Origin: a virus
IMG/VR virus record: IMGVR_UViG_3300033141_003854
Span: 1-64,000 of that record
Strand: one strand, 5' to 3'
Length of the DNA stretch: 64,000 nt
Position 1 is the first letter of the stretch, and every line of letters starts with the position of its first letter. Below the pieces are notes generated by a model that saw only the letters and a program-made list of their open reading frames with translations, was not told where the DNA came from and did not search any database. This document shows, piece by piece, positions 1 through 60,072 of the stretch. Both the position numbers and the translations under genes were made by a program.

Positions 1-63
1 GGTAAGAACCGAGTTAAATATTCCGGCAATTGTAGGCTTCTTTGGCCTTTTTCTCTACTTTGA
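1..63. repeat. Left copy of the 63-bp end repeat
   Basis: These 63 bases are identical to 63938-64000. They lie inside the 5' part of the portal gene, not at a plausible packaging end, so they most likely show that the sequence closes into a circle. The unit length would be 63,937 bp. A longer overlap outside the window cannot be excluded. Confidence 0.9.
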
Positions 64-92
64 GATGGGGGAGTTGTTTTTACTTTAGGCAT
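1..92 (-). CDS. Portal protein, N-terminal part (gene continues at 64000)
   Basis: When the ends are joined, the portal frame that enters from 62554-64000 continues here to an ATG at 92-90. The extra residues begin MPKVKTTPPSQSREKGQRSL and run straight into the frame at the right end. An AGG-containing ribosome site (GCAGGTAAAT) precedes the ATG, and the start lies 35 bp after the terminase stop. The full protein would be 491 residues. A TTG inside the repeat is a weaker alternative start. Confidence 0.85.
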   Translation of the reverse strand, partial: MPKVKTTPPSQSREKGQRSLQLPEYLTRFL

Positions 93-127
93 ATTTACCT
101 GCTCAGCAATTTATTATGCATATTATA

Positions 128-43716: not shown

Positions 43717-43994
43717 GTAAGACTGTCCTTTTCACGTTGTACTGCCTTTTTGTACTGTTCCCAACGGTAGGCTTCTTCGTCATTCCAAGTCCAGTCGCCA
43801 CCTACGATGGTTGGAACATTGCCATTGAATAATTTATTGCCATAAGCCTCTTTCCATCTTTCCCAAGCCTTTTCAACTTCTTCAGATGGGTTGGAATTAG
43901 GCCATAACATTCTAAGCCGAGCCTCTTCTTCCTCCTGATCTCTAAAAGCAGTTTCGATTGTTTGCTCCAATGTCATCCACTTTTTCCAAATCAT
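43713..43994 (-). CDS. Small protein in the connector set
   Basis: 93 residues from ATG 43994 (MIWKKWMTLEQTIETAFRDQ and on), helical, charged and Trp-rich. GAGGTTATA gives the ribosome site, and the start overlaps the previous stop. Function unknown. Confidence 0.6.
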   Translation of the reverse strand: MIWKKWMTLEQTIETAFRDQEEEEARLRMLWPNSNPSEEVEKAWERWKEAYGNKLFNGNVPTIVGGDWTWNDEEAYRWEQYKKAVQREKDSLT

Positions 43995-44674
43995 TATAAC
44001 CTCACAAGTCTGCGCCTTTTGTATTTTCTTACTAATCTCGCAACAAAATTTGCTCTGGCAGACGTACCAAAAGTGGTTCTCATCAGTTTTACACGATTTT
44101 CCCTGTATTCCTGGTTCGACCATTGCTGAATTCCAATGTCTCCTGGCGATTCATTACCATAGCCGATAATTTCATTCAGCATAAGATCGGAATATGTAGT
44201 AAGAGCTAACAGGAAATCGGGTTGTGTAGCAGTACCAGTAGGCAAGCCTGAGGTATAAGCAATTTCAATTTGATAGGGATAAGCTCTACCATGAGAACTA
44301 CATTTACAATAGCCAATTAGATACTGAATATCAATAATGCCTCGCTCGTTGTCTCTTATTGCAGCATAAATATTATCCGTACCCGTGATAGTGTAGTAAA
44401 CATCTCCATCAAAATCTATGAATTTTATATGGCCGATACTGTGAATATAGGCATAGTCGGTAATGAAATACCTATGGGTCGGGTTATAAAAATACGTTCC
44501 AGTAATTGTTGTCGGAAGTAAAAAGGTAGATAAATCTTCCGTTAAGGCCATTTCCGCCATCAAATAAGCAGCGGTACGTTGCGCCGCCGCTCCCGTGCCG
44601 GTATTTCCCCCATAATTTTGAAAAGTCGCATCGTCCATAATAATAGGACTGGTATACGGATAAGTCGTATTCAT
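43994..44674 (-). CDS. Head-tail connector, adaptor-like
   Basis: 226 residues. The N-terminal region (AQRTAAYLMAEMALTEDLST) is helical, the middle is beta (YTITGTDNIYAAIRDNERGI) and the C-terminus basic. It is the first gene after the glycan cluster and begins the connector set. A gp6/gp15-like adaptor is likely by position only. Operator-like site 6 lies 17 bp upstream. Confidence 0.6.
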   Translation of the reverse strand: MNTTYPYTSPIIMDDATFQNYGGNTGTGAAAQRTAAYLMAEMALTEDLSTFLLPTTITGTYFYNPTHRYFITDYAYIHSIGHIKFIDFDGDVYYTITGTDNIYAAIRDNERGIIDIQYLIGYCKCSSHGRAYPYQIEIAYTSGLPTGTATQPDFLLALTTYSDLMLNEIIGYGNESPGDIGIQQWSNQEYRENRVKLMRTTFGTSARANFVARLVRKYKRRRLVRL

Positions 44675-44690: not shown

Positions 44691-44705
44691 ATAACACCGT
44701 GTTAT
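44691..44705. promoter_or_regulatory. Operator-like palindrome, site 6
   Basis: ATAACACCGTGTTAT, identical to sites 1 and 2, in the 27-bp gap between the glycan cluster and the connector genes. It covers the stop codon of the gene before it. Ideal for switching late gene sets on or off. Confidence 0.65.
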
Positions 44706-44941
44706 TTATTAGTCAGATTTACATTCATTTTGGGCACAATGATCTGTTGTTCTTTTTGTTGTTGTGCCCTCATAATCTCCTCTCTGATTACTGCTTGCTC
44801 ACCATGTATTCTCATATATTCGGCCAAAGCCAGAATTTGCATCGGGGTTACATTGATAAACTGTGCATTAAAAACAACCGAACCCGGCTCGGCAAATTTT
44901 ATTACAATTATACTATCATTTTGTTGTTTTTCATCTACCAT
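44702..44941 (-). CDS. Small protein, last gene of the glycan cluster
   Basis: 79 residues from ATG 44941 (MVDEKQQNDSIIVIKFAEPG and on), beta start, then helical with QQ-rich part. Its start overlaps the glycosyltransferase stop. I recall similar short proteins in connector regions, but name no family. Confidence 0.55.
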   Translation of the reverse strand: MVDEKQQNDSIIVIKFAEPGSVVFNAQFINVTPMQILALAEYMRIHGEQAVIREEIMRAQQQKEQQIIVPKMNVNLTNK

Positions 44942-45786
44942 GATTTCCACTCTGTATATTGGAGCTTGTTGCCCCATTTTGACATAAATAACATTCTGTT
45001 TTGATTTAATGGATAGGGAATTTTATATTTCTCAGCGGTTGCGCCTACCACATGAGTTCCAACCGCTTTTGGGTTTACTACTATATTATAGCCTAATTCT
45101 CTAACTTTCAAGCAAAAATCCACATCTTCATAAGTTCCCATGCCATAATCCAAGGAAAAGCCTCCGACTTTCTTCCAAATTGTTCGTCTAGTGAGTAATG
45201 CCGCGCCAGTAACAGCATACATTTCCCATACAGCATTTACTTTTGGATGATCTGCCGACCAGCCAATATAGGCATGTGCAATTTCTCCCCTGATTGTTGT
45301 GTGTAATCCAATATGCTGAACTTTATTTGCAGGTCTAATGGCAGGATTTATGCCATCAGCCAATTCTTTTGGAAACAATAGCTTCATTCCAGCAACGCCT
45401 ATGCTTGGTTCATCTAATGCCTTTACTAATTCTACAAGGCTATTAGGTTGAAGAACTACATCCGAATTTAGAAAAAACATAAGTGGAGCTTTGGTAATTT
45501 TTGCGCCTTTATTACATGCCAGAGGAAAGCCTAAAGGATTAGGAAATTCCACTACTGTAATATGTGGATCACTTACAATGTCTCGGTAATATACTTTTTC
45601 TTCTTTAGGAGTGCCATTATCCACAATTGTTACATGATATGAAAGCTCCCCAACTGCTTCAGGTATTGATTCTACACATTGTTGTAACAGATCAATATTT
45701 CGATGTACCGGAATAATGATGTCCAGTAAAACACTCGGTCTTACTACTCGTTGCATCTTTCGATTTTTTCGTTTTCTTCTGCCCAT
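44935..45786 (-). CDS. Family 2 glycosyltransferase
   Basis: 283 residues with a basic head (GRRKRKNRKMQRVV) and a GT-A fold: DIIIPVHRN, VTIVDNGTP, GFPLACNKGAK, FLNSDVVL in place of DxD, and GTYEDVDFCLKVRELGYNIV with the acidic pair. No membrane segment, so cytoplasmic. Donor and acceptor are unknown. One of seven glycosyltransferases here. Confidence 0.88.
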   Translation of the reverse strand: MGRRKRKNRKMQRVVRPSVLLDIIIPVHRNIDLLQQCVESIPEAVGELSYHVTIVDNGTPKEEKVYYRDIVSDPHITVVEFPNPLGFPLACNKGAKITKAPLMFFLNSDVVLQPNSLVELVKALDEPSIGVAGMKLLFPKELADGINPAIRPANKVQHIGLHTTIRGEIAHAYIGWSADHPKVNAVWEMYAVTGAALLTRRTIWKKVGGFSLDYGMGTYEDVDFCLKVRELGYNIVVNPKAVGTHVVGATAEKYKIPYPLNQNRMLFMSKWGNKLQYTEWKSW

Positions 45787-46458
45787 TTAATCATTCCTCT
45801 CATATCCAAAGGCATACATTGTATCTTCAAAATATTCCCAGAATCGTTTCAGATGGTGAGGCTTAAAATACTTCGTCCAATCATTAATTCTCCCCGCCCT
45901 GAATGTATGAGACTTTGTACTTCTGAATTGTCTTAGCATAACATTCCATTTTGCACCTAAAATGTTTGCTAATCGCTTTGTTTCTCTTTCAGTATGTAGT
46001 ACAAAATCCTCATATTTGAATTTATGAATCCAGTCGCATTTCAGCCAGCCTACATACCTCGGAAATACATCTTTCCATTTTTCAATCTGTTCCATCAATT
46101 TAATATCTATCTGTTCATCGCTCAGTACAACATCCCTAACAGATAAACATGATGGTGTTCTGCTATCCCAGAACATGGATGAAACTAGACAATCTCTCAA
46201 ATCCCGCCTTATGAAAAGACAGTGGCGGTATCTTTTCAAGACTTTTTCATAATCCTCATGATAAAAAAGATGTCCCCTGACAAATGAATTTGATGGAGAA
46301 CCTACATCTCTTAGAATATCATCATCTGGATGGATAACATTTTTGACGAGTGCTTTAGCATTAACAACATGCGCTCCCCCATCTCTAGTTACTGCTATCA
46401 TCAAATCAATCATATTAGTTCCAGATTTAGGAACAGAAATAAGAAAAATATCAGTCAT
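45787..46458 (-). CDS. PAPS-dependent sulfotransferase
   Basis: 223 residues. ISVPKSGTNMIDLMI is the 5'-phosphosulfate loop, LFIRRDLRDCLVSSMFWDSR the 3'-phosphate site with Arg and Ser, and FRAGRINDWTKYFKP matches the FR.G..G.W binding end. It lacks signal peptide and membrane anchor, so it acts in the cytoplasm, presumably on a sugar made by the neighbouring enzymes. A sulfotransferase of this kind in a phage is unusual. It depends on host PAPS, as no PAPS genes are in the window. Confidence 0.85.
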   Translation of the reverse strand: MTDIFLISVPKSGTNMIDLMIAVTRDGGAHVVNAKALVKNVIHPDDDILRDVGSPSNSFVRGHLFYHEDYEKVLKRYRHCLFIRRDLRDCLVSSMFWDSRTPSCLSVRDVVLSDEQIDIKLMEQIEKWKDVFPRYVGWLKCDWIHKFKYEDFVLHTERETKRLANILGAKWNVMLRQFRSTKSHTFRAGRINDWTKYFKPHHLKRFWEYFEDTMYAFGYERND

Positions 46459-47184
46459 CTAATAATCCTCTCTTGCCCAAACCGGCAAAGTTTCTGGAAT
46501 ACCCCCAAAATATTTGCTTAGAGGATGCAACATGCCTGCCTCTTTAGTTTTATTATAAAAATCTCTTTTCCTTGATAATATTTTATCTGTCGGCCAGGGA
46601 TCGTGTAATAAGCAATATGGAGGCAACAATTCAAACTTCATTACTTCAGCTAAATCCATCGTAAAGGCATGTATCCAGGGATCGCTTTCATCTGCTTTGA
46701 AATCTAATAAATCGGCTTGCCATGCCCACAAAGAAGGTGTCCACACTTTAGGCGATTCATTATTTACTATAGATAATTTGGGAAAATATGTGCCTTTTCT
46801 CCACAAATACAGCCTCACGGCAAATATAAAATCTACTGGACAACTACCCAAAATTTCTCTAGCATTTTGTTTCAGTAAATAATTCGGCACACAATCCACA
46901 TCATCAAAAATTATCCAATCAGCCTTTTCATCTCTAGCCCAATCAATGAGAAAATTAATGTGTTTTCCGTGCGGGTTCCTCCAAACTCGGCCTTTCCAAA
47001 CGCGTTCAGTAAAAGTCCTGACAGACACATTTGGAAATTTCTTGGCTAATGACACCGTGTTATCTTCACTACCACCATCAGCGATTAATATTTTATCTGC
47101 CCATTGGTAAGATCGACAAAATCGTTCAATGTTGTATTCTTCATCACGAGTTCTGGCAATGACAATAATGTTATTTAATGACAT
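46459..47184 (-). CDS. Family 2 glycosyltransferase (short)
   Basis: 241 residues: NIIVIARTRDEEYNIERFCR, ILIADGGSEDNTVSLAKKFP and WIIFDDVDCVPN, the DxD-type site. Similar to enzymes that add sugars to lipid A cores or similar acceptors. The C-terminal part contains HDPWPTDK. It holds one operator-like palindrome. It overlaps the next upstream gene by 14 bp. Confidence 0.82.
   Translation of the reverse strand: MSLNNIIVIARTRDEEYNIERFCRSYQWADKILIADGGSEDNTVSLAKKFPNVSVRTFTERVWKGRVWRNPHGKHINFLIDWARDEKADWIIFDDVDCVPNYLLKQNAREILGSCPVDFIFAVRLYLWRKGTYFPKLSIVNNESPKVWTPSLWAWQADLLDFKADESDPWIHAFTMDLAEVMKFELLPPYCLLHDPWPTDKILSRKRDFYNKTKEAGMLHPLSKYFGGIPETLPVWAREDY
47049..47063. promoter_or_regulatory. Operator-like palindrome, site 7
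   Basis: ATGACACCGTGTTAT, one base off, inside a glycosyltransferase gene. The flank TATCTTC matches that of sites 1 and 2. Confidence 0.5.
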
Positions 47185-48307
47185 CTTTAATCCCTGCTTC
47201 TAATATATCAGTAGCCACTTCCCATTTTCGATTCTCTACGTATTCTCTAGGCTTCTGAGCCTGAAGACATTTATCACGATTATTGTAAACATAGTTCAAT
47301 AATTCTACACCATGCGCTCTATCGGCAAAATACCGTCTAGCATTTCCGAACGGATCGCGGTGAGTACAAATTGTATCCACGTCAATTAGAAATCCTCGTC
47401 CATCTGCCAATACTTCAGCCATGGCTGTACAATTTGTAGCAAGACAAGGAAGGCCTACTGCCATTGCTTCTAACAACGGCAGTCCCAAGCCCTCATTCTT
47501 GCTAGTCAACAAAAAAGCATCGCTACCAGCATATATCGACCATAAGGTTTTGAAATCAAGCCCACGCTCAAAGATCATTAGATTTCCTGAAATACCAAGC
47601 TCCTGAGCGTAATCCCGCAACTTCCAACCAAACCGCAACTTTTCTCTTGTAACCAACACATATAGAAATTTTTGTTTGTCTTCTTTGTCAGAAATAAAAT
47701 CGGCAAAAATCTCCATTGACCGTGATAACAATTTTCTTTCCTGATTATCAGCAACAGTCAAAACAACAAAATTTTCATCATTCGCATTAAAAAGAGAATT
47801 ACGTACTGTTTTACGTTCTTCATCTGTCGGCATCCTCCAAGCTCCAGTATCAATCCCAATCGGAATGTATTCAGCATTTGCAACACCTGCCTTCTTAGCT
47901 TCTTCTGTACCAAACTCGGAAATAATAAATGCCTTATCCATCGCTGAAATGCCTACTGCCCAACTAACACATAAAGGATCGCCTTCAACTGGCATAATCC
48001 CAATATAAGGGCAAGGCTTTTGCTGAAATCTGCTCAAAATTTCTATTTGTAATGGTATGTCCAGAGCAGTAACCATTACATCATAATCCCATACTATTTT
48101 CAAATTTTGGGTTATTGCCAATGCCTCTTGTAAATTTCGTGCTGGAATAATAGAACAAGGATAATAATGCTCTTGGCCTTTGTAACCCAACCCAGGACAT
48201 ATAATCTCATATCCTCTTTTCACTAATTCTGTAATAAGAGGAATTGAAATGTTGAGATAACCAGAGCCAATTAAATTGAAATCGCTAATCCATAATATTT
48301 TTTTCAT
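47171..48307 (-). CDS. Family 4 glycosyltransferase
   Basis: 378 residues, GT-B fold: start KKILWISDFNLIGSGYLNIS, VVLTVADNQERKLLSRSMEI in the middle, and SKNEGLGLPLLEAMAVGLPC with the E-x7-E signature near residue 275. It transfers a sugar from a nucleotide donor. Cytoplasmic. Overlaps its neighbours. Confidence 0.88.
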   Translation of the reverse strand: MKKILWISDFNLIGSGYLNISIPLITELVKRGYEIICPGLGYKGQEHYYPCSIIPARNLQEALAITQNLKIVWDYDVMVTALDIPLQIEILSRFQQKPCPYIGIMPVEGDPLCVSWAVGISAMDKAFIISEFGTEEAKKAGVANAEYIPIGIDTGAWRMPTDEERKTVRNSLFNANDENFVVLTVADNQERKLLSRSMEIFADFISDKEDKQKFLYVLVTREKLRFGWKLRDYAQELGISGNLMIFERGLDFKTLWSIYAGSDAFLLTSKNEGLGLPLLEAMAVGLPCLATNCTAMAEVLADGRGFLIDVDTICTHRDPFGNARRYFADRAHGVELLNYVYNNRDKCLQAQKPREYVENRKWEVATDILEAGIKDVIK

Positions 48308-49329
48308 CTAAATACCTTTTCATCCCATTGTTTTAGAATTCTCTTTGGACTAAATCTTTCTATTGCTTTCCGCTGAACTTCGGCCATATCTACGCCCCGA
48401 CCAATTGTATCAACAACATTATTAATAAATGCTCGATGATTGTGGGAATTATTCATATCGACTGCGATTAACGTTCCCATATTGGTTGTGGATAATGCGC
48501 CGTTAGCCGTTGTGATAGGATATGCACCAGTTACCTGCGCCTCAGCACAAGAAATGCAAAAGAGTTCATCGTATATGCAGGGATAGATAAACCACTCGGC
48601 TTCAAGTTCTTTTTCAATGAATTCTGCTCTAGAAATTGCGCCCATAAACTCTACATCATCATACTTCATCCAACTAAGGACATGACGCTCGTTCAGCCTG
48701 GATGAACCCCAAAGGCGATAATCAGATGTAATGGTGAGAGATAAATCAGGGATTTTCCGCTTCAATGCAAACCACATAGCGTGCAAATATTGAAGCCCTC
48801 TATCTGGAACTGACGAAAACAGCACCCGATTTTTAATTTTGCTGATCTTTTTGTCTTTGTAATCATCAACTCTCACGGGAAGATCAATAACAATTACATT
48901 ATCAATTTTATATGTCTGTTTAAAATAATTGCGATGAAATTCTGAAATACAAACTATTTTGTCAACATAAGAACTGAATTTAGCAAAATCTCCAATAGTA
49001 TATTGATCGGTAGACCACCATACTTTCAATCCCTTAGCCACAATTGCTTTTGAATTGGGGGAGCGGAATACAATTAAAACATCTCTTTTATCTTTAGGAT
49101 CAAATTGGCTGATTAGTCTTTGTTCAAAAGGACTGACATCTGAGGGAACTGGAGACAGAAGATTATATAAAATAACTTCATGTCCTGCCAAATGCCATTG
49201 TTCACACATAGTCAGCAGAGCCAATTCAGCACCGCCAACCCCAATTCTATTGGCATCTCCCCAAATTGTCTTAGATGTAACCCCAATCGGACTACCATCA
49301 TTACAGAGAATATGAATATTTAATCCCAT
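48304..49329 (-). CDS. Family 4-like glycosyltransferase
   Basis: 341 residues from ATG 49329 after GAGG. GGAELALLTMCEQWHLAGHE is the N-terminal donor-side pattern and YDELFCISCAEAQVTGAYPI has E-x7-E. LFSSVPDRGLQYLHAMWFAL matches GT4 C-terminal domains. Overlaps the next gene by 4 bp. Confidence 0.82.
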   Translation of the reverse strand: MGLNIHILCNDGSPIGVTSKTIWGDANRIGVGGAELALLTMCEQWHLAGHEVILYNLLSPVPSDVSPFEQRLISQFDPKDKRDVLIVFRSPNSKAIVAKGLKVWWSTDQYTIGDFAKFSSYVDKIVCISEFHRNYFKQTYKIDNVIVIDLPVRVDDYKDKKISKIKNRVLFSSVPDRGLQYLHAMWFALKRKIPDLSLTITSDYRLWGSSRLNERHVLSWMKYDDVEFMGAISRAEFIEKELEAEWFIYPCIYDELFCISCAEAQVTGAYPITTANGALSTTNMGTLIAVDMNNSHNHRAFINNVVDTIGRGVDMAEVQRKAIERFSPKRILKQWDEKVFR

Positions 49330-49351
49330 AATCATCCTCAACTTTCTATCT

Positions 49352-49564
49352 TCATTTGAAATTTCCAATCATCAGCCTGCCATCAATAATAACCGTATCA
49401 GGCGTCTCTGGTTTCTGAATTGGATATGTCCAGATTACTAGTTCGTCTTTATATTCTGGAAACTTGGTTCTCATGTCTGCCAATGCGTCGGCTTCAGTCT
49501 TTCCCGTTCCAACTATTGCTTTATTTCTAAAGCGGTCAAATTTACAAATTCTGAAGAATTTCAT
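49352..49564 (-). CDS. Small protein of unknown function
   Basis: 70 residues from ATG 49564 (MKFFRICKFDRFRNKAIVGT and on), basic start, ending with VIIDGRLMIGNFK. AAGGAAG precedes it. It overlaps the methyltransferase by 23 bp. No family recognised. Confidence 0.55.
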   Translation of the reverse strand: MKFFRICKFDRFRNKAIVGTGKTEADALADMRTKFPEYKDELVIWTYPIQKPETPDTVIIDGRLMIGNFK

Positions 49565-50234
49565 CACTTTCTTCCTTTTCACATAAAATCCAATATTCGA
49601 TAGGAAATGTATCCTTTGGAATGTACGGTTTACCATGAACTTTCATATTCTGTTCAATGTAAACATCCAAAAATATATCATCTGTACTTAGAAGTTCGCT
49701 CTCCTTTATAACTTTCCAGCCCGCTATTTCCAATAACCAAAGTAATTGTTCTTTTGCCATTACAGAATAATGATTTCTGCCTCTATATGTCCAATAATCA
49801 GGCGCAGGCGCAATTATTGCAAGATATTTTGCTGACACTCTATGCCATTCCATCAACGTTATTACAGGCATAGGTGAATGTTCTAACGCATGACGAGCAA
49901 AAACCAAATCGAATTCGCCAGATCGAATTCCATGCATGAAAGTGAAATCACCATAAAAGACATCTCCATAATTCATAGATGCTTCTTCACAATCCTCCCA
50001 ACTCATGGAGATTCCTCGCCATTTTATCCCTAACTTTTTGAACATAGGAGCGCAAAATCCGCTTCCACAACCTACATCAAGAACATTCCAAATGTCAGGT
50101 ATTTTCTTTAATAGAAAATTTATGGCATTAGAAGCCCATATAACATGACCTTCATCTGCTGGTTGGCTATACACATCATCTTCTAGCCTACACAGGTACT
50201 CATCTATCCAACTATAGTCTCTGTACATTTTCAT
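49542..50234 (-). CDS. SAM-dependent methyltransferase (class I)
   Basis: 230 residues: motif I NVLDVGCGSGF at about 50-60, DCEEASMNYGDVFYGDFTFM, motif IV FDLVFARHALEHSPMPV, and APAPDYWTYRGRNHYSV. Of the Methyltransf_11 type. In a sugar cluster it most likely methylates a hydroxyl or carboxyl group of the glycan; a small-molecule or protein substrate remains possible. Confidence 0.82.
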   Translation of the reverse strand: MKMYRDYSWIDEYLCRLEDDVYSQPADEGHVIWASNAINFLLKKIPDIWNVLDVGCGSGFCAPMFKKLGIKWRGISMSWEDCEEASMNYGDVFYGDFTFMHGIRSGEFDLVFARHALEHSPMPVITLMEWHRVSAKYLAIIAPAPDYWTYRGRNHYSVMAKEQLLWLLEIAGWKVIKESELLSTDDIFLDVYIEQNMKVHGKPYIPKDTFPIEYWILCEKEESDEILQNL

Positions 50235-50391
50235 TCAGCCCATCTACTTTTTTCTTAATCTCTTCTTCATTTTCTGATGCAATACCAACCTGCTCAATGC
50301 TGATCAGTTTGGGCTGTTCAATTCTGCGAAATACCGTATATTTTCCATCTAAAGTTTTTAGATAATAATATGTAATTGTCTCTTTCGCCAT
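50212..50391 (-). CDS. Small protein of unknown function
   Basis: 59 residues from ATG 50391 (MAKETITYYYLKTLDGKYTV and on), beta hairpin then helix. Upstream residues in the same frame overlap the neighbour. No family recognised. Confidence 0.55.
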   Translation of the reverse strand: MAKETITYYYLKTLDGKYTVFRRIEQPKLISIEQVGIASENEEEIKKKVDGLNENVQRL

Positions 50392-50392
50392 C

Positions 50393-50752
50393 TTACTGTA
50401 CTCCGTTAGCGTGCCTCCCAAATTGAGCATGAGACAGACACACAATTAGTTCGCCAGGAACAAACTCGCTGGAAGGAGAAGCATCTTGACGGTATGCGTT
50501 ATAGCCTACAATGCCCGCCGGGCTTCCACACGAACACATTGGCGTCCATCTACCTATCGTTTGTTTCTTTGCTTCTGGATCATCATAAATAAAATGAGTA
50601 TCATAGGGAGCGCATTTGACAAAACGTCCAAGTTCAGTAAAGAAAATCTTATCCTGTCTGGTTACTTTATGCCCATCCATTGTAACTGCTTCATTGGGCG
50701 AGTTATAATGCTTTATGATTGCAAATGTAAAGTTTTTGAAATCTTTAGTCAT
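50393..50752 (-). CDS. Protein of unknown function, source of a duplicated start
   Basis: 119 residues, MTKDFKNFTFAIIKHYNSPN and on, with CSCGSPAGIVGYNAYRQDA and a late CLSHAQFGRH that could bind metal. Its first 13 codons are nearly repeated at 51843-51890. It overlaps the next glycosyltransferase gene by 4 bp. No family recognised. Confidence 0.6.
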   Translation of the reverse strand: MTKDFKNFTFAIIKHYNSPNEAVTMDGHKVTRQDKIFFTELGRFVKCAPYDTHFIYDDPEAKKQTIGRWTPMCSCGSPAGIVGYNAYRQDASPSSEFVPGELIVCLSHAQFGRHANGVQ

Positions 50753-51525
50753 TTTTCTCCTTCATAATTGGCTCGATCAATTAATCTGGCTTGTAATTCA
50801 TTTTCATAAACACGACTTCTACCCACACGAATTTTAGGGCGTTTATGCCATTGATGATAAGTACATACATCCTTCACGGTTGTTGCAGTTCTGTGGAGAA
50901 CCTGCTCGCGCAAATATATATCTTGGTCTGCGGTATATTGGGTATCATCTTCCCTAAATAACCCCAACCATTCCCAATCACATCTACGTTGTCCAGTTAA
51001 GTATGTAGTAATATTTGCTTCCCAGTGAATCTTCAATCCTCGATTGTCAATATCCGGCCAATAACGATATTTCCAAAATCCCGGCAAACTTTCAATTGCT
51101 CTAGGATTAGATTTCCAATCTATAAAATGTAACATCCAAGTATTTAATCGAGATAAAAATAGATTTTGAACACTAACTCTTCGTCCAACATAACTATTAA
51201 TCATGTGTTGTATCATATATTCACTAGACAAAATCAAATCCGCCCCAGTAAATATTACAAACTCTCCCTGAGATTGACAATAGCCAAAATTCCAGGCTGT
51301 TGCAGGAGTACGATCTGACGAACTGGAAATTTTGTGATAATGCAAATTTTTAATTTTTTTATTCCAATTCCAAACTGCGACTCGCAAATCCTCTTCGCTA
51401 TTATCATCAACAATAATTAATTCGTAATCAGGATATATTTGAATTGACCAAGAATACAAGGCTCTATTCAAAAAGGATTTACGATTTTTTACGGCTAAAA
51501 TAACACTAACTGAATAATTTTTCAT
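50749..51525 (-). CDS. Family 2 glycosyltransferase
   Basis: 258 residues: SVSVILAVKNRKSFLNRALY, YELIIVDDNSEED, ATAWNFGYCQSQGEFVIFTG then ADLIL in the DxD place. The second half is Trp-rich (NTWMLHFIDWKSNP) and ends WEWLGLFREDDTQYTADQDI, which supplies the ED pair. Cytoplasmic GT-A fold. Confidence 0.85.
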   Translation of the reverse strand: MKNYSVSVILAVKNRKSFLNRALYSWSIQIYPDYELIIVDDNSEEDLRVAVWNWNKKIKNLHYHKISSSSDRTPATAWNFGYCQSQGEFVIFTGADLILSSEYMIQHMINSYVGRRVSVQNLFLSRLNTWMLHFIDWKSNPRAIESLPGFWKYRYWPDIDNRGLKIHWEANITTYLTGQRRCDWEWLGLFREDDTQYTADQDIYLREQVLHRTATTVKDVCTYHQWHKRPKIRVGRSRVYENELQARLIDRANYEGEK

Positions 51526-51546
51526 CGCTTTTCTTTCTATTATAAA

Positions 51547-51840
51547 CTATGACACTAAATCATATGCCAAATCAAATTCAAACCAGCCACATTCATCACA
51601 ATCTTTTATTACATAAAAATTGCCAGTAGTTCCACAACAAGTATCGCGTTCCCAAAAAGATATTTTGGGATAGTCTTTTAATCTAATGTTGGCCGTAGCT
51701 CCACATTTTCGACAAATCACGGGCAACGAATCTGTCCAAAAATCTTTCTTGTCTAATAAAAACCGAGACAGTTTTCCTAGCCTATTATCAAATCTTTTTT
51801 TATGTTTTAATAATTTATAGAACTCATTTCTTGTAACCAT
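51547..51840 (-). CDS. Zinc-ribbon protein of unknown function
   Basis: 97 residues: a basic helix first (KLLKHKKRFDNRLGKLSRFL), then CRKCG and DCDECG with DTCC between, a zinc ribbon. No family recognised. A 48-bp gene remnant lies just upstream. Confidence 0.6.
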   Translation of the reverse strand: MVTRNEFYKLLKHKKRFDNRLGKLSRFLLDKKDFWTDSLPVICRKCGATANIRLKDYPKISFWERDTCCGTTGNFYVIKDCDECGWFEFDLAYDLVS

Positions 51841-51842
51841 TT

Positions 51843-51890
51843 TTATCTCCCAATGATTGCGAACGTAAAGTTTTTGAAGTCTTTGCTCAT
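51843..51890 (-). pseudogene. Duplicated gene start, 15 codons
   Basis: ATG 51890 reads MSKDFKNFTFAIIGR and stops. The first 13 codons match the start of the gene at 50752 (MTKDFKNFTFAII) at protein level and at nearly all bases. Its ATG overlaps the stop of the glycosyltransferase above (ATGA). It looks like the leftover of a duplication or recombination that placed the genes between the two copies, or a leader peptide. Confidence 0.65.
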
Positions 51891-52801
51891 AGTAGTTTCA
51901 CCGTCTCCAATATCTGCTGGATACGTGCGTTCCATGTATGCGGCTTTACTTTTCTGTAACCAGCGTCCGCCATTTCATTTGCAAACTCTGGGTTATTCAG
52001 TAAAAATTCTACCTGGTTTATTGCTTCCTGTACATTATCAAAGCCCAAATAATGCTCGCCTTCAACAAAGAAAGTAGGCAAATCCGGTACACGATTAGTA
52101 ACCAAGGGCAATCCCATACCAAAGGCTTCCCATACTCTAGCCGGTAAATCTTGCAAGCTAGACCAAGATAAAGCAATTTTTGATTGACCATAAGTTTTTC
52201 GATATTCATCATATACTACACCAAGATCATAGTATACATTCAAGCCCTTCGCTCTCAGGGCACGTATCAACCGATTTCTTTGGTCATATTTTAATCCAAT
52301 CATGCAGGCATCATAAATCTTTTCTCTGTTTTCAGGATAATGATACCGCCGGCTGTAAGCATAAGGCAAATAAAAATCATTTTTCTCCATATATGGAGTT
52401 TGCATTGTAAAAGAATAGTCCACATATTTTCTAAATGGCTTATACCACATACCTAAAACATGAGGATCAGTTTTGACATGCGCTATAATGCGACCAGGAG
52501 GTCTTGAATTGAAATGAAAACCAGCATCTATTACTAAAGATAAATCTGGCGTCCAAGGTATTTGATTTTCAACAATTCCCGGAGGCATCTCTTTATTTAC
52601 CATCTCAGCAGGCAAAGGAAAATCTGGCGTCTTTACATATTTCTGTGGTATTGTCATGCCACCATTCCAAGGTATCCAATTCCCTGTAAACGGCCCACAA
52701 GTCCAAAGCTCAACATCATCTCGGTCTTCTAAGGCTTCCCAAAAATATCTCAGCATTGCCAAGGGATAAAAAATTCCAAAAACAGCAACTTTTATTGCCA
52801 T
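51887..52801 (-). CDS. Glycosyltransferase, GT-B type (CgeB-like)
   Basis: 304 residues: VAVFGIFYPLAMLRYFWEAL, SLVIDAGFHFNSRPPG, VDYSFTMQTPYMEKNDFYLP, and SWSSLQDLPARVWEAFGMGL with VPDLPTFFVEGEHYLGFDN, the C-terminal pattern of CgeB/Glyco_trans_1_2 proteins. A donor-sugar binding role is likely. Overlaps the dehydrase stop by one base. Confidence 0.8.
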   Translation of the reverse strand: MAIKVAVFGIFYPLAMLRYFWEALEDRDDVELWTCGPFTGNWIPWNGGMTIPQKYVKTPDFPLPAEMVNKEMPPGIVENQIPWTPDLSLVIDAGFHFNSRPPGRIIAHVKTDPHVLGMWYKPFRKYVDYSFTMQTPYMEKNDFYLPYAYSRRYHYPENREKIYDACMIGLKYDQRNRLIRALRAKGLNVYYDLGVVYDEYRKTYGQSKIALSWSSLQDLPARVWEAFGMGLPLVTNRVPDLPTFFVEGEHYLGFDNVQEAINQVEFLLNNPEFANEMADAGYRKVKPHTWNARIQQILETVKLL

Positions 52802-54009
52802 TACGTTCCCTTCTGTTTTATAAATTTGTGTATAACATCTAGCATATAAGACAGATCATCCGGAAAAATTCCTGGCCAACAACCAACCCAGAAAGCGTTT
52901 TCCATCAGATAATCACTTCCTTTTGTGTTGCTAAAAATTTCATGATAGAAAGTTGACGCTACTGGCTGGCGTGTAATGTTTCCAGCAAAAATTTCTCTGG
53001 TGGCAATTCCCTTCGCCTCAAGATATGTAACAAATTCCTGCTTTGTAAACTTACTGGACTTGACTATGATGGGAAAGCCAAAGGGATAAACTGCATCATC
53101 ACGTTTAATTATCTGAATGTGATCTGAAAACTGAGATAAACTTTCGTATAAGGCATCATAATTATTTGCTCTGCGATGTAATAAATTATCAATTTTATTC
53201 ATTTGTGCAGAACCAATTGCGGCTTGCATATCAGTCATTTTCAAATTATACCCTAATCGGGTAAATGTATATTTATGATCCCAACCTTTGGGTAAATCAG
53301 GCCACTTCCAATCAAATCTTTTACCACAAGTATTGTCTTGGCCAGGCAAACACCAACAATCCCGCCCCCAATCCCGATAACTATTTATAATCTTTAATAA
53401 TTTTCCATCATTTGTAAGAACTGCCCCACCTTCTCCTGTGGTTATGAAATGTGCAGGAAAGAAGCTGAGAGTAGAAATATGACCAAGTGTGCCTAATTTC
53501 TGCCCGTTTATTTTACTACCAAAGGCATCAGCACAATCCTCAATAAAGAATTTCCCTAAACGGTCACATTCTTCCCTTACTGCTTCAGCATCAAAAGGAA
53601 ATCCTAAAGTATGAGCTTGAATAATTCCGGCCACTTCTTCCTGGCGTAATACAGTAATGATTGTATCAATGTCAGGATTTAGTGTGGACGGATCATTATC
53701 TATAAACAATGGAACATAACCATATTGAACAAGTGGAGCAATGGTGGTTGGAAAGCAGGTTGCAGACGTAACTACCATGTGACCGTTGCGATATTTCTCA
53801 GCTATAGCTGCAATTGCCAATAAATTTGCGGATGAACCAGAATTGCACAAACTTACATGACGAACTCCAAAGAAATTTTTTAGCTTTATTGCAAATGATT
53901 TGCAATATCTGCCTTCCGTGAACCATCTACCATTAGCGACATCTACCAAATTTCTAACTTCGTCACCGTCAATAACTGCGCCAGAGGCAGGAATAAATTT
54001 TCTAACCAT
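52801..54009 (-). CDS. rfbH-like: RfbH/E1-like CDP-6-deoxyhexose 3-dehydrase
   Basis: 402 residues of the DegT/DnrJ/EryC1 fold, but the usual PLP-binding Lys is His187 in SFFPAHFITTGEGGAV, the mark of E1 dehydrases. Cys218, Cys220 and Cys228 in DCWCLPGQDNTCGKRF match the E1 [2Fe-2S] ligands in spacing to each other and to the His (31 residues), as I recall from the Yersinia enzyme. The fourth ligand seems shifted to Cys159. E1 removes the C3 hydroxyl to make 3,6-dideoxysugars. No E3 reductase or CDP-sugar gene is present, so host partners are needed. Confidence 0.88.
   Translation of the reverse strand: MVRKFIPASGAVIDGDEVRNLVDVANGRWFTEGRYCKSFAIKLKNFFGVRHVSLCNSGSSANLLAIAAIAEKYRNGHMVVTSATCFPTTIAPLVQYGYVPLFIDNDPSTLNPDIDTIITVLRQEEVAGIIQAHTLGFPFDAEAVREECDRLGKFFIEDCADAFGSKINGQKLGTLGHISTLSFFPAHFITTGEGGAVLTNDGKLLKIINSYRDWGRDCWCLPGQDNTCGKRFDWKWPDLPKGWDHKYTFTRLGYNLKMTDMQAAIGSAQMNKIDNLLHRRANNYDALYESLSQFSDHIQIIKRDDAVYPFGFPIIVKSSKFTKQEFVTYLEAKGIATREIFAGNITRQPVASTFYHEIFSNTKGSDYLMENAFWVGCWPGIFPDDLSYMLDVIHKFIKQKGT
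53888..53906. repeat. Copy of the 14108 palindrome core
   Basis: ATTGCAAA-TGA-TTTGCAAT, 19 bases identical to the centre of the palindrome at 14108-14132, here inside the dehydrase gene near its start. Confidence 0.55.
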
Positions 54010-54169
54010 TTATCCTCTCAATTTCATTACTGTCAGCAGCAATTTCAAAATAAATAGTTTTGTAATAAGGAAAATACGAACCACATAACGCACAGTAAGG
54101 ATTATACTCCTCGTTCAATAAACCACAGAAACTACATTGCCATACAATAACGGTTGCTTTATTTATCAT
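54002..54169 (-). CDS. Small double-CxxC zinc protein
   Basis: 55 residues with WQCSFCGLLNEEYNPYCALC, a RanBP2-like zinc ribbon, and an acidic end. ATG 54169 after GAAG; overlaps both neighbours by 8-11 bp. It may bind RNA or protein. It is close to the RNA ligase gene, perhaps by function. Confidence 0.6.
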   Translation of the reverse strand: MINKATVIVWQCSFCGLLNEEYNPYCALCGSYFPYYKTIYFEIAADSNEIERING

Positions 54170-55067
54170 CTTCAAATGCCTGCTCAACTAATTTTTGCTT
54201 ATACCATTCTGGTAATCCAGTCTTAATACCTCGCGATATTTGAGGCCAGAAATGCGCAAAGAGTATATCTTTTATTTCATCTTCACATTCTTCACGAGTA
54301 TCCTTTATGACCTCTTTAATAAGATTACCAATATCACGTGGCGATTGTTCTAATTCTCCTCGCTCCCGCAAATGTTGAACTGCTTTTTCCCAACGAGCAT
54401 TAGTTCGATAGCGACTAACTATAGTCTGTAAAACATCTTTCTTAGATGGATTAGATTTTTTCCATTCATTAGCATGAGTTTCCTTAAATTTTTCCGAAAC
54501 ATACTTCCCAATAGCTATCTTCTTATCTCTGGTAAATAGTTTGTAATTTTTAACCACTACTCCTTCAATCATTGAGCCACCAAGTAACGGCTTTGATTTC
54601 TCCAACAATTCATTGAAACTATTAATATTATCTACAATACCACAATAAAGCATGGGCACACATTCAAGCCCAAGTCGTTCAGCTTCAATCTTCTTATCTG
54701 AATAATTCATGTATTCTTCAATGCCAATCATTACGTCAAATAATATCAAATTATGTTTAGGAACACGCTCATACGCCAAAGAGTTATGTTTAGGTTTCCG
54801 AAGATACTCACACCGATAAACATAACCAGGGGTTAACGAGGGCTTCAATTTTTGAGCCGCTTCAACAGCCTCAATAAACATTTTTTCTGGAGCATTAATA
54901 ACAATTTGTTTGCCCTTACTACGACAACATAATTCACCATCAATAATTGCCATACTAAATTGGCTGCCATCTATTTTTTCTTCAACAATTACTTCATCAT
55001 CAAAGATGCCAGCTATTGCTTTATGTCCAATTGCATATACCTTTGGATAGCTATTTATTCTGCTCAT
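54159..55067 (-). CDS. RNA ligase
   Basis: 302 residues of the nucleotidyltransferase ligase fold. Motif I is EKIDGSQF (KxDG with the AMP-accepting Lys) near residue 30, motif III region YRCEYLRK, motif IV MIEGVVVKNY and motif V GKYVSEKFKE. The C-terminal 100 residues are helical and charged. It seals RNA nicks with ATP. Surrounded by sugar genes, it may nevertheless serve RNA repair against host tRNA-cutting defences. The start may be 55067 or 55073. Confidence 0.85.
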   Translation of the reverse strand: MSRINSYPKVYAIGHKAIAGIFDDEVIVEEKIDGSQFSMAIIDGELCCRSKGKQIVINAPEKMFIEAVEAAQKLKPSLTPGYVYRCEYLRKPKHNSLAYERVPKHNLILFDVMIGIEEYMNYSDKKIEAERLGLECVPMLYCGIVDNINSFNELLEKSKPLLGGSMIEGVVVKNYKLFTRDKKIAIGKYVSEKFKETHANEWKKSNPSKKDVLQTIVSRYRTNARWEKAVQHLRERGELEQSPRDIGNLIKEVIKDTREECEDEIKDILFAHFWPQISRGIKTGLPEWYKQKLVEQAFEDDK

Positions 55068-55782
55068 TTTCATCACCAAAAACCTTAGCCCATTTTTTAT
55101 GCCATTTTCTCAGCCATTCTTTTCTGTTTCGTTCTGTGCGTTTACGTCTTTTCTCATCATAAGTATAAGACATTGCGCCCATGTGTTCAACCTTTCTGCC
55201 AGGCAAAGCACGTAGTTTAATGCCAAGATAATGCGCCATTGTAGATAAGTCTACATCTTCATAGTCACTAGGCTCATACAATATATCAAAACCACCCAAA
55301 GTGTTCCAGACTTTGCTGGTACAAGCTAACAGCCAGCCTTCGCAATAAGACACAATAGCTGGTTTACCTTTATAAGTTATTTCATTCCAGCCCGCCTTCC
55401 AGTCTATGATGCATCCACCAATCAGCACATTTTCATTGTCAGAGATTATCTGTTTTATGTCAGATATAAAGTCGCCATAAATAATTACATCATTGGAAAG
55501 AAACACCAAAATATCGGCATTGTATTTCATCGCAATTTTTGCGCCTAAATTCATTGAGCCGATAAAACCTTTATTCTCCTTGTTTCTTTTATACCTGATC
55601 TTGTGATGGTTGATCTGTTTTTGCCAAAAGGCTACGCCAGTTTCACAGTCTGAATCAGGAGATGCATCATTGATTAAGATAATTTCAAGCTCATGATTGC
55701 GGCAATGAGTATATAATTCCCATAACCGTTTATGGGTCAAGTCCCAATGATTATAATAAGGCAGTATTACAGCAGTTTTCAT
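55051..55782 (-). CDS. Family 2 glycosyltransferase
   Basis: 243 residues: TAVILPYYNHWDLTHKRLWE, IILINDASPDSD, GFIGSMNLGAKIAMKYNADI, FLSNDVIIYGD as DxD, and PSDYEDVDLSTMAHYLGIKL. The end is basic (KRRKRTERNRKEWLRKWHKK), perhaps for membrane or acceptor contact. Rhamnosyl-type enzymes look similar, which fits the RmlD-like neighbours. Confidence 0.87.
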   Translation of the reverse strand: MKTAVILPYYNHWDLTHKRLWELYTHCRNHELEIILINDASPDSDCETGVAFWQKQINHHKIRYKRNKENKGFIGSMNLGAKIAMKYNADILVFLSNDVIIYGDFISDIKQIISDNENVLIGGCIIDWKAGWNEITYKGKPAIVSYCEGWLLACTSKVWNTLGGFDILYEPSDYEDVDLSTMAHYLGIKLRALPGRKVEHMGAMSYTYDEKRRKRTERNRKEWLRKWHKKWAKVFGDENEQNK

Positions 55783-55785
55783 TGC

Positions 55786-56637
55786 TTATTCAGGAAGATC
55801 AACACTTGCGTCTACCCTTCGCTTCAAGTCTTTTAAACCATCAAATACAGAATAGACCGGAATACCCAAACTCTGAGCATATTCAGTCCTCAATCCTGCT
55901 CTTAATGGTCTGACTGCTTTGCCAGGAATGGCTATCGTTGGAATTACTAATGTGGGATCAAAGCCAAACATATTTGCAATAGATAAAGCAAACTCGTATC
56001 GAGTAAGAACTCCTTTACCTGCGATGTGAATAATCGGAGTGTAGAACCCATCATCCATCATTTTTGCTAGTTTTAATAATCCATCCACTAAATGTGGAAT
56101 ATAGGTAGGCGTTCCGCTAATTCTCTTGGTTACTTTCACTTCTGTGCCTTCATCAAGCTGGCGAAGTAATTTAGTTACAAAATTGGGTGTTTTCTCATCA
56201 TAAAGAACGGTTGTACGCACAATTATACTCTTGTTATAATCCAAACGATTTTTCTCTAAGTCAATTAGTAAATCTTCCCCCATAGACTTTGATTTTCCAT
56301 AGACGCCTAAAGGATTCTTTGCAGCATTTTCTTTGTACGGCCCGGATACCCCATCAAACACATAATCTGTACTGATATGAATCATTCTCCCAGAAAATTC
56401 ATAATTTAAGAGGGCCAAACCACTAATATTTACTGATGATACCTTACTGATATTGGAATTAATCTCAGCCAAATCTACATCTGTATATGCTGCACAATTA
56501 ATTATAAGATCAAGGTTAAGGCTATCTAATTCATATCCCAGGCCACTACTAAGAATGTTGGATTTAATGGGGATACAGCCTCGTCTGACCAGTTCAGAAC
56601 CTAATCTTCCATTTGGGCCGGTTACACCAATTCTCAT
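55786..56637 (-). CDS. RmlD-like sugar nucleotide reductase A
   Basis: 283 residues of the extended short-chain dehydrogenase fold: GVTGPNGRLGSE for NAD(P), NCAAYTDVDLAE, STDYVFDGVSGPYKE, and YGKSKSMGE with the Tyr-Lys pair. RmlD reduces dTDP-4-keto-rhamnose to dTDP-rhamnose. With no RmlA, B or C here, the substrate would come from the host. A related 4-ketoreductase role is equally possible. Confidence 0.85.
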   Translation of the reverse strand: MRIGVTGPNGRLGSELVRRGCIPIKSNILSSGLGYELDSLNLDLIINCAAYTDVDLAEINSNISKVSSVNISGLALLNYEFSGRMIHISTDYVFDGVSGPYKENAAKNPLGVYGKSKSMGEDLLIDLEKNRLDYNKSIIVRTTVLYDEKTPNFVTKLLRQLDEGTEVKVTKRISGTPTYIPHLVDGLLKLAKMMDDGFYTPIIHIAGKGVLTRYEFALSIANMFGFDPTLVIPTIAIPGKAVRPLRAGLRTEYAQSLGIPVYSVFDGLKDLKRRVDASVDLPE

Positions 56638-56834
56638 GTTTTCCTCATCTCTTTCAATTCATTTAGTAATCCAATAGCATAATTACGATCAATGGTTGCC
56701 ACTAGCTCATAATCACTATGTTTGACTTTGATATGCATATATTCACTGCCAGTCTGTAAAAACCATTCCAATATCTTTTCTGGATTTTTGGGATACCAGG
56801 TTTCAAAAATCTCAGCAGTTATTTCCTGCGTCAT
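56634..56834 (-). CDS. Small protein between the two reductases
   Basis: 66 residues, MTQEITAEIFETWYPKNPEK and on, helix then beta (YMHIKVKHSDYELVATIDRN). It overlaps both reductase genes (4 and 23 bp). Function unknown. Confidence 0.55.
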   Translation of the reverse strand: MTQEITAEIFETWYPKNPEKILEWFLQTGSEYMHIKVKHSDYELVATIDRNYAIGLLNELKEMRKT

Positions 56835-57642
56835 ATTCAGCCTTCAGCAATTCTATTCCATCTTTGTAGGAATACAGAGGAAAACCCATTTTCCTGGCTA
56901 ATTTAGTTACTAGCCCGCCAGAATATGGCCTTGGCGTAAGATCACTAAGTTTATATAGTCTTGGCACAACTTTGGATGCATCAATGTCTAATTCAATGCA
57001 AATATCTTGCCAGAACCGGTAGTGAGAAACTGTTTCAGTACCAGCAATGTTTATAATATCATAAGGAAAGGTGCTTATGATGCTCAGTAAATAAAGTAAT
57101 GCTTCAGAAAAATGCCGGGCGTGCAGATATGATCTTTTGATTACATCACTTATTACCACAACACCTTTACTTTGAATTCTGTTCAAGGTTGGTTTAATAG
57201 TATCCAAAGTAAAAACTTTGCTAGATCGCACAACTACTGTTCTGCCAGGCCACATTGTTGCTATGGTTTCCCCCATATACTTTGAATTGCCATAAGCATT
57301 TATGGGGCGTGCTCTGGATGATTCTTTGTATGGGCCTCTACCCCCGCTGAATACATGATCGCTGGAAACATAAATAAAGAATTTACCATTTTCAGAAAAC
57401 TTTTCAATCAGATTTCCCGTGCCTCGCACATTTATTTGAAACGCGTGTAAAGGGTCATCTTCACAGACATCCACATCGGTTTCAGCGGCTAGGTGTACCA
57501 ACGTATCTATTTTCCCCAACTTAATCGTTTCAGGCTTAGTTATATCAAAATCAAGAGGCACAACATCAAGACCGATCTCCAACGCAAGCTGAAGAAGCTC
57601 TTTTCCAATAGTTCCTCTATGTCCAGTTATTCCAATTTTCAT
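56812..57642 (-). CDS. RmlD-like sugar nucleotide reductase B
   Basis: 276 residues: GITGHRGTIGKE, HLAAETDVDVCEDDPLHAFQ, VSSDHVFSGGRGPYKESSRA, YGNSKYMGE. It differs from reductase A and may act on another keto sugar, or as an epimerase. It is the first gene of the glycan cluster in transcription order. ATG 57642 is placed by GGAG six bases before it. Confidence 0.83.
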   Translation of the reverse strand: MKIGITGHRGTIGKELLQLALEIGLDVVPLDFDITKPETIKLGKIDTLVHLAAETDVDVCEDDPLHAFQINVRGTGNLIEKFSENGKFFIYVSSDHVFSGGRGPYKESSRARPINAYGNSKYMGETIATMWPGRTVVVRSSKVFTLDTIKPTLNRIQSKGVVVISDVIKRSYLHARHFSEALLYLLSIISTFPYDIINIAGTETVSHYRFWQDICIELDIDASKVVPRLYKLSDLTPRPYSGGLVTKLARKMGFPLYSYKDGIELLKAEYDAGNNC

Positions 57643-57706
57643 TTTCATCTCCATAAAAATATTCTACCGCAAAAGGCAAAAACAAACATTAGAATTAGAT
57701 TAATAT

Positions 57707-58887: not shown

Positions 58888-60072
58888 TTATCCAATCGCC
58901 GTGCAGGTCGAAGCGATCCTGCCGGTAAACTGGCTAGTATATTTTCCTTGAGCGCAGCACGCCTTTATCACAAGCGCAGTAGCCGCCCAAACCTCAAAGG
59001 AAATGGCAGTACAGCCCGGTACAAGATCGTTCAGGCTCAAAGGAATTTGAGTCAGCCGGTAAACCAGTGGTTCACCATTATGCGTCATGCGTAATGCCCA
59101 CAGATCAGCCTGGAAGTTCCCGCCTCCGATGTTAGTTCGGCGGAAGTTATTGTCAGCTACAACCACCAAGCGACCCACACCAGTATTGACGAAACCAGCG
59201 AAGTTAAAGCCTGGGGTAATGCGGTTGCCATCGGCAAAGTTCACTACCTGAGAACCAGCAAAGCCAAGCTGGAAGTAGCCGCTCAGCATTTCCTGAATTG
59301 CCTGTGGATGCCCAAAAACATGCGTAGGCTTTGCACAACTTTCACTCACGAAGCGGTCAAAGGCAGCCGCAGAGAATGAACCAGATGCGCTATTGTCGTT
59401 GGTGTGCATAGTGCAGGACATATTTGTAGCCCAATTCTCGATACCATCAAATTCAAGAGAATTGGTATTTGAATCACCCTGAACAAGCAGACGATCCCAC
59501 CCGTTCATCACCAAGACCATTGCGGTGCGGACTTCTTTTTCCTTCACGCCCAGTACAACTTCACGTTGGAAAGATGCAAGATCAGAGCCGCCGGGTACGC
59601 CTTCGCCAGTAGGAAAGCCACCAACTAAAGTGTTGATGCCATGCCAGCCTGCGCGGGCAACTGCGGTAGAGTGCATGATGTCACGAATAGATAATGTTTT
59701 CTTTGCGCCGATGTTTTTAATATTGACGGTTGTATTGTCACCATCATGCGTATATTCTTCTGGACATTCACCATCTGCAAATGCAATGTAGCTAGAGCCA
59801 GAAGTAAACTCTAACGAAGTCATTTCCCGCCAGGTGTACGAGTTCAAAGAAGTACCAATTTCGGGAATCGCCTGGAGCAAGGTAACTTCCTCGCACATAG
59901 CGATAACTTCAGTAGGATCAAGCGGGGTTGGATATTGTGCGGTAAAATCCGCAGGTTGAGAATAAGGTTGAGGAAGAATAACCGGATCAGTCGTCTTGGA
60001 AACAAACGCTTTTTCCTTCGCAGCGCCTTCACCAAGATTTAGAACCGGCTCTCCCGTAATAGGATTAGGCAT
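58888..60072 (-). CDS. Major capsid protein (HK97 fold)
   Basis: 394 residues directly after the protease gene. TYTWREMTSLEF-type strand (SYTWREMTSLEFTSGSSYIA), GAKKTLSIRDIMHSTAVARA (spine helix region), FDRFVSESCAKPTHVFGHPQ and the C-terminal strand (ISFEVWAATALVIKACCAQG) fit the HK97 capsid fold. GGAGG precedes the start. GC is higher than in neighbours, as often seen in highly expressed capsid genes. Confidence 0.85.
   Translation of the reverse strand: MPNPITGEPVLNLGEGAAKEKAFVSKTTDPVILPQPYSQPADFTAQYPTPLDPTEVIAMCEEVTLLQAIPEIGTSLNSYTWREMTSLEFTSGSSYIAFADGECPEEYTHDGDNTTVNIKNIGAKKTLSIRDIMHSTAVARAGWHGINTLVGGFPTGEGVPGGSDLASFQREVVLGVKEKEVRTAMVLVMNGWDRLLVQGDSNTNSLEFDGIENWATNMSCTMHTNDNSASGSFSAAAFDRFVSESCAKPTHVFGHPQAIQEMLSGYFQLGFAGSQVVNFADGNRITPGFNFAGFVNTGVGRLVVVADNNFRRTNIGGGNFQADLWALRMTHNGEPLVYRLTQIPLSLNDLVPGCTAISFEVWAATALVIKACCAQGKYTSQFTGRIASTCTAIG

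Follow-up and report, generated by a model that had tools for sequence, protein, structure and literature searches.

A glycosyltransferase-rich gene cluster between the head and neck genes of an uncultured phage lineage and its proposed role in virion glycosylation

To our knowledge, sugar disguise of the virion has so far been shown only in a few simpler phages, and we know of no report of a sulfated phage virion glycan. Virion glycosylation as such is already reported in mycobacteriophages, in the cluster F1 phages Che8 and Rita (Freeman et al. 2023, as cited in PMC11256854 and PMC12619734). Phage-encoded glycosyltransferases are involved there, glycans are reported on the capsid (and tail tube), and a shielding role was inferred; only a handful of glycosyltransferases are present (two in Maravista), encoded close to the 3′ end of the genome. 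In contrast, the locus considered here, at positions 44702-57654 of a 64,000-nucleotide stretch of viral DNA (the window; positions 1 to 64,000 of IMGVR_UViG_3300033141_003854), carries five core glycosyltransferases together with sugar-making, methyl, and sulfate enzymes between head and neck. A similar layout occurs in the unrelated podovirus ctKR88 (MW202524, Manatee Spring), in which glycosyltransferases and methyltransferases lie directly between the capsid and connector-side ("stabilization") genes, and one glycosyltransferase is homologous to that at 48304..49368 of the window (24% identity). However, the ctKR88 capsid has no homology to that of the present phage at 1e-5, and no E1, sulfotransferase, or orphan protein is annotated in it.

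Gene content of the cluster

The record carries a 114-bp terminal repeat, and the ∼63.9-kb genome is therefore essentially complete. ORF calls and Pfam matches place the cluster between the head and neck genes of an uncultured phage, with every feature described below on the minus strand. The leftward orientation with coupled overlaps described in the original prediction was confirmed, as neighboring genes mostly overlap or are separated by gaps of at most 52 nt. Its claim that the cluster lacks an internal terminator proved uninformative, since 13 terminator-like sites were observed versus 11.8 ± 3.4 in shuffled sequences. No membrane segments were predicted in any cluster protein, and all look soluble. 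On the left, the slot is bordered by the major capsid gene (58888..60072; weak match to phrog_212, major head, 0.001), whose product is shared by 52 IMG/VR loci. On the right it is bordered by con43994 (43994..44674), which belongs to no confident family and is assigned to the neck side from its position. Of the 52 loci, 24 records, the window included, reach from the capsid to this neck gene, and it is present in all of them.

Seven glycosyltransferases were recognized by Pfam, the number originally proposed. Four are of the GT2 type: 55051..55782 (PF00535, 2.5e-14; core, 24/24 records), 50749..51525 (PF00535, 1.8e-14; accessory, family in 7/24), the GT2-like 46459..47184 (PF13704, 2.4e-6; accessory but frequent, 16/24), and 44935..45786, which adjoins the neck genes (PF00535, 1e-15; core, 22/24). 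Two GT4-type core enzymes, 47171..48307 (PF00534, 6e-17) and 48304..49368, are each found in 24/24 records, and a CgeB-type core enzyme lies at 51887..52801 (PF13524, 4e-22; 22/24). The 48304..49368 assignment is weak, with matches under the Pfam gathering score, yet the protein is family-conserved among relatives. The expected PAPS sulfotransferase (45787..46458), E1-type dehydrase (52801..54009), class-I SAM methyltransferase (49542..50234; PF08241, 7e-10; accessory), and two RmlD-like NDP-4-keto-sugar reductases of the SDR type (56812..57654, accessory; 55786..56637, accessory but frequent, family in 16/24; PF04321, RmlD_sub_bind, 1e-35 and 9e-48, respectively) are likewise present.

ORF calls also agree on several small proteins. 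These are a 66-residue protein whose ORF overlaps both neighbors and whose family is matched in two related loci (56634..56834), a 97-residue Cys-containing protein with a Shine-Dalgarno sequence and no family match (51547..51840), a 77-residue protein with a relative in one record, G014 (50212..50445), a 94-residue protein for which a start at +72 would shorten the overlap (49352..49636), and a protein ahead of the neck gene (44702..44977; family in 7/24). While the enzymes originally listed all stood, that list was incomplete: it missed an RNA ligase (54159..55079; PF09414, 3e-15), probably an unrelated passenger found only in the window among the 24 records, and a small Zn-ribbon-like ORF (54002..54187; PF00641, weak at 0.004 and below cut-off).

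Conserved core and variable cassettes

Capsid identities among the 24 records range from 50 to 100%. Relatives with a broken cluster, named beforehand as a refuting observation, were not seen: all 24 keep one order, GT2, CgeB-type glycosyltransferase, orphan CxC..C..H protein, GT4, GT4, and GT2, with at most three members absent per record. In eight further phages, reached through the tail tube, the neck end is kept as a GT2, mostly with a GT4, ahead of con43994. About 56 of 59 over-threshold GT2 matches in 23 records fall inside the slot, as read from coordinates. One locus (G013) has the same capsid without the cluster and neck block, and the capsid therefore does not need the cluster. Between the fixed genes lie variable cassettes encoding E1, CDP-glucose-pathway enzymes, methyltransferases, and the sulfotransferase.

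The orphan core protein (50393..50752; 21/24) directly follows the CgeB-type gene in most relatives. Residues C73, C75, C105, and H114 are invariant in a 22-member alignment and resemble a zinc site. The protein had no Pfam, PHROG, NCBIfam, or PDB-fold match (predicted model, pLDDT 75), and its alignment offered no stretch conserved enough for use as a scan query. Divergence of the core glycosyltransferases and the orphan protein tracks that of the capsid (Mantel rho 0.40-0.64, 0/500 permutations), with the exception of the core GT2 at 55051..55782 (rho 0.10), perhaps a consequence of paralogue choice. The methyltransferase and the GT2 proteins at 46459..47184 and 50749..51525 do not track capsid divergence by the Mantel test. 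When cultured phages were searched with the capsid, sulfotransferase, CgeB-type glycosyltransferase, orphan protein, and tail tube, nothing was recovered at the nucleotide or protein level.

Deoxysugar, sulfate, and methyl enzymes

The protein at 52801..54009 scores 470.4 bits against the curated RfbH equivalog model (NCBIfam NF011936, cut-off 423), which identifies an E1/RfbH-type CDP-4-keto-6-deoxyhexose 3-dehydratase, and its closest solved structure is E1 (3bcx, 339 bits). Canonical E1/RfbH enzymes hold their FeS cluster with four Cys in the spacing C-x57-C-x-C-x7-C. Like the E1/RfbH enzymes of the CDP-3,6-dideoxyhexose pathway to abequose, paratose, and ascarylose (3bcx, 3bb8), the phage protein has His in place of the PLP-binding Lys (SFFPAHFITTGEGG) and keeps CxCx7C, and with it three of the four FeS Cys. 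Unlike them, it has Ala at the x57 Cys, with a Cys nearby at x58. Searches of the near-complete genome gave no RfbF, full-length RfbG, or APS kinase, and the donor pathway is therefore host-dependent. No E3 reductase appeared among the matches obtained. In some relatives, RfbF-like, RfbG-like, and epimerase-like genes adjoin E1. Membership of the dehydratase in the RfbH/E1 family, together with the RfbF/RfbG-like enzymes added in relatives, allows the deoxysugar of the original prediction to be sharpened to a 3,6-dideoxyhexose-type sugar. Both reductases fall below the rmlD equivalog cut-off (151 and 114 versus 224 bits) and are therefore RmlD-like SDRs, not proven rhamnose reductases. A full rhamnose RmlABCD set considered in G021, G022, and G036 was rejected: NCBIfam recognized neither of two putative members, and the third proved to be an acetolactate-synthase-like fragment.

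The sulfotransferase matches PF00685 at 50 bits (3.5e-13) against a cut-off of 22. It contains the motifs PKSGT, RDxRD, and TFRxG...DW and the candidate catalytic His63; PKSGT, RDxRD, an invariant H63, and TFRxG are common to four phage homologues. An AF2 model matches SULT1C1 (3bfx) with a Foldseek value of 2.4e-7. Fold and PAPS motifs are those of the cytosolic SULT family (SULT1C1, SULT7A1), although identity in structural alignments is at most about 21% and the gene here is embedded in a phage virion block. Single-protein and two-sequence scans recovered only the known relative. The sulfotransferase is present in 6 of 41 records searched, in four independent lineages, and the methyltransferase family in 11 of the 24 capsid-neck records, so that "sulfated, methylated" describes some members and not the lineage. 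A sulfotransferase AMG has been described in glacier-ice viruses (PMC8290583); the literature searched, mostly non-subscription papers, yielded no phage sulfotransferase tied to virion glycans.

Proposed product and competing explanations

We propose that the cluster is a glycan-assembly module for the virion. The five conserved soluble glycosyltransferases (55051, 51887, 48304, 47171, and 44935) would act in the cytoplasm and assemble an oligosaccharide straight onto one of the structural proteins of the particle, probably one encoded by the adjacent genes for the head, neck, or tail, with the orphan metal-site-like protein possibly assisting them. Exchangeable cassettes would determine the glycan chemistry. 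For the present phage, the host may supply an NDP-4-keto-6-deoxy sugar from which the E1/RfbH dehydratase and the RmlD-like reductases make a 3,6-dideoxyhexose-type donor. The extra GT2 proteins would attach this sugar, the methyltransferase would cap it, and the SULT-fold enzyme would sulfate it using host PAPS. The glycan may shield the virion from the host or environment, or tune adsorption. The acceptor, product structure, timing, and purpose of the glycan are what we infer; a search for an acceptor motif found none.

The same enzymes could instead alter a glycan on the host surface (LPS, capsule, pilus, or flagellum) during infection, as a defense against superinfection or re-adsorption to debris, through the host lipid carrier and export. 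Enzymes of the RfbH, RfbF/RfbG-like, and RmlD-like kinds characteristically serve O-antigen biosynthesis, E1-like genes occur in cyanophages too, and host lipid-linked intermediates could be extended by cytoplasmic glycosyltransferases. We nevertheless consider this unlikely: the cluster has no membrane-bound glycosyltransferase and is locked inside virion genes in every capsid-neck record, and the initiating transferase (PF02397) and Wzx flippase (PF01943) families occur in 0 of 27 records, with positive controls. A capsid scan of sequenced genome contigs found no prophage of the lineage, which leaves lysogenic conversion without support.

Modification of phage DNA by glycans on hypermodified bases would have precedent in the virus-encoded glycosyltransferases cited in PMC12619734, and the genome does encode DNA methylase-like and UDG-like proteins. 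It appears very improbable here, as the ThyA-family/dCMP hydroxymethylase (PF00303) is absent from the window genome and found in 1 of 27 records, and the glycosyltransferase genes lie in the virion block instead of adjoining replication genes; there was also no Tet_JBP match, but the positive control gave none either. Least probable of all is the view that the interval separating the head and neck modules is a hot-spot that tolerates unrelated cargo genes with no joint product. The RNA ligase, HNH endonucleases, TPP enzymes, and an intein found in the slot across records would fit such a hot-spot, while the fixed core order and its co-divergence with the capsid argue against it, as do the accessory genes of known family, which mostly encode nucleotide-sugar or methyl-transfer chemistry.

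Given soluble proteins, no lipid-carrier transferase or flippase, and no base-hydroxymethylating enzyme in the genome, direct cytoplasmic glycosylation of a virion protein, with lineage-specific sulfated 3,6-dideoxy/methyl decoration, is best supported, and we regard it as probable. Virion glycosylation is thus the better of the two readings originally offered. More tentatively, and at a level of confidence that leaves it doubtful, the cluster may be a modular virion glycosylation machine throughout the lineage, in which the orphan metal-site protein targets or carries the acceptor for the five-glycosyltransferase core and each phage swaps cassettes, here giving a methylated, sulfated 3,6-dideoxyhexose glycan. 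Such a machine would be the viral counterpart of serotype variation, and its product the first sulfated phage virion glycan known to us. If virion glycosylation is correct, sulfation and 3,6-dideoxy sugars would be added to phage glycobiology, and a soluble enzyme set would be available for glycan engineering. The lineage would vary the surface chemistry of its particles by cassette swaps around a fixed core, much like bacterial O-antigens, which poses the testable question of how glycosylated virions benefit outside animal hosts.

Predicted sugar-chain genes between the capsid and neck genes

The window covers 64,000 of the 64,051 bases in the IMG/VR virus record, and a 114-base direct repeat is common to both record ends (window 1-114 and the end of the record), closing the genome into a circle of ∼63.9 kb. 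The portal ORF crosses the junction of this circle. The terminase, portal, capsid, neck, tail tube, and tape measure genes run leftward, the last being putatively assigned from its size and position, and the replication genes run rightward. The phage lineage is uncultured. No match to the capsid, the tail tube, or any of several cluster proteins searched turned up in 50,697 phage records, and the terminase finds only ∼25% matches among phage records.

The cluster occupies window 44702-57654 as a leftward, tightly packed set of genes, flanked by the capsid gene (58888-60072) on one side and by con43994 (43994-44674), whose role as a neck gene is assigned from its position, on the other. The original prediction had listed seven glycosyltransferases (GTs), a sulfotransferase, an E1-type dehydratase, two RmlD-like SDRs, and a methyltransferase, all of which were found together with small ORFs, but it had overlooked an RNA ligase (window 54159-55079, minus strand, PF09414). 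Of the 24 compared records, only the window has this ligase, and it is missing from the 23 relatives. An orphan protein (50393-50752) has no fold match and carries a CxC...C...H pattern that is invariant across its family. In most relatives, the gene of this family sits directly 3' of the gene for the CgeB GT (51887-52801 in the window).

Conservation and divergence across relatives

A capsid-alignment scan of IMG/VR yielded 52 loci. The cluster region was extended in ∼30 records, with genes labeled by family profiles, and conservation was counted in the 24 records, the window included, in which both cluster borders were visible. Pairwise capsid identity among these 24 ranges from 50 to 100% with a median of 60%, two of the records (G026 and G028) having identical capsids. 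Three GTs, named here by type and window start (GT2_55051, GT4_48304, and GT4_47171), are each present in 24 of 24 records, followed by the CgeB GT (22/24), GT2_44935 (22/24), and the orphan 50393 family (21/24). Those core genes that are present follow one identical order in all 24 records. An independent tail-tube scan added 11 further loci, nine of which reach upstream of con43994, and the GT cluster lies there in eight of the nine. One capsid-positive record, G013 (locus L018; capsid ∼65%), has neither the glycan cluster nor the block from con43994 to the tail tube, and its neck/tail block differs. This single case hints that the cluster moves together with the neck/tail block, suggesting a module swap in G013.

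Divergence in the core families, with the exception of GT2_55051, parallels capsid divergence (Mantel rho 0.40-0.64, 0/500 permutations). The rho of 0.10 between GT2_55051 and the capsid possibly stems from paralogue confusion. Of the accessory families, E1 also tracks the capsid and one RmlD family does so weakly, and no such correspondence is seen for GT2_46459, the methyltransferase, or GT2_50749.

Some relatives' loci (L013:11296-16014, L015:11296-15766, and L012:13591-16659) encode very large orphan proteins of 1000-1572 aa immediately behind the capsid gene or a short distance further on, with the L015 ORF in two pieces. These are possibly head decorations.

Sulfotransferase and deoxysugar enzymes

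The window sulfotransferase adopts a SULT fold in its AlphaFold2 model (pLDDT 76), with a Foldseek match to SULT1C1 at 2e-7. The SGT and RDxRD motifs, the conserved His, and TFRxG are kept in this protein and in three phage homologues. Sulfotransferase genes occur in 6 of 41 searched records, each time within the cluster; since three of the six share one sequence, they amount to four independent ones.

The window E1 protein passes the RfbH equivalog cut-off, and its closest solved structure is the E1 dehydratase 3bcx (339 bits), as compared to 147 bits for the best ColD-type entry. The Lys-to-His change, which tells dehydratases from aminotransferases, is kept, as are three of the four iron-sulfur cysteines. 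Beside E1 in relatives lie epimerase-like proteins as well as glucose-1-phosphate cytidylyltransferase-like and CDP-glucose 4,6-dehydratase-like proteins, the latter two labels being best matches with scores under the equivalog cut-offs. The E1 gene of one relative (L017:17266-19707) is interrupted by a LAGLIDADG intein exactly before an iron-sulfur-ligand cysteine. Accessory genes of relatives also include thiamine-diphosphate (acetolactate-synthase-like) proteins, with three Pfam TPP-enzyme matches (e.g., L093:5774-6298), perhaps for branched sugars.

Probable glycan assembly and known phage systems

Hydropathy indicates no membrane segments in the cluster proteins, and the families tested for an initiating phosphoglycosyltransferase or flippase were found in 0 of 27 records, with control genomes positive. 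A base hydroxymethylase of the thymidylate synthase family was likewise absent from the near-complete window genome. Because all of these are missing, the simplest reading of the gene content is that the glycan would be built straight onto a protein within the cytoplasm, and the fixed position of the cluster argues for a virion protein as the probable acceptor. Since no RfbF, full-length RfbG, or APS kinase was found in the near-complete window genome, the host would have to supply part of the sugar donor and PAPS.

Capsid glycans made by phage GTs have been reported for mycobacteriophages Che8 and Rita (as cited in PMC11256854 and PMC12619734), and podovirus ctKR88 has GTs at the place corresponding to the window cluster; this kind of system is therefore already known. 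What is new is how large, conserved, and modular the system is in the window lineage, together with its predicted sulfation.
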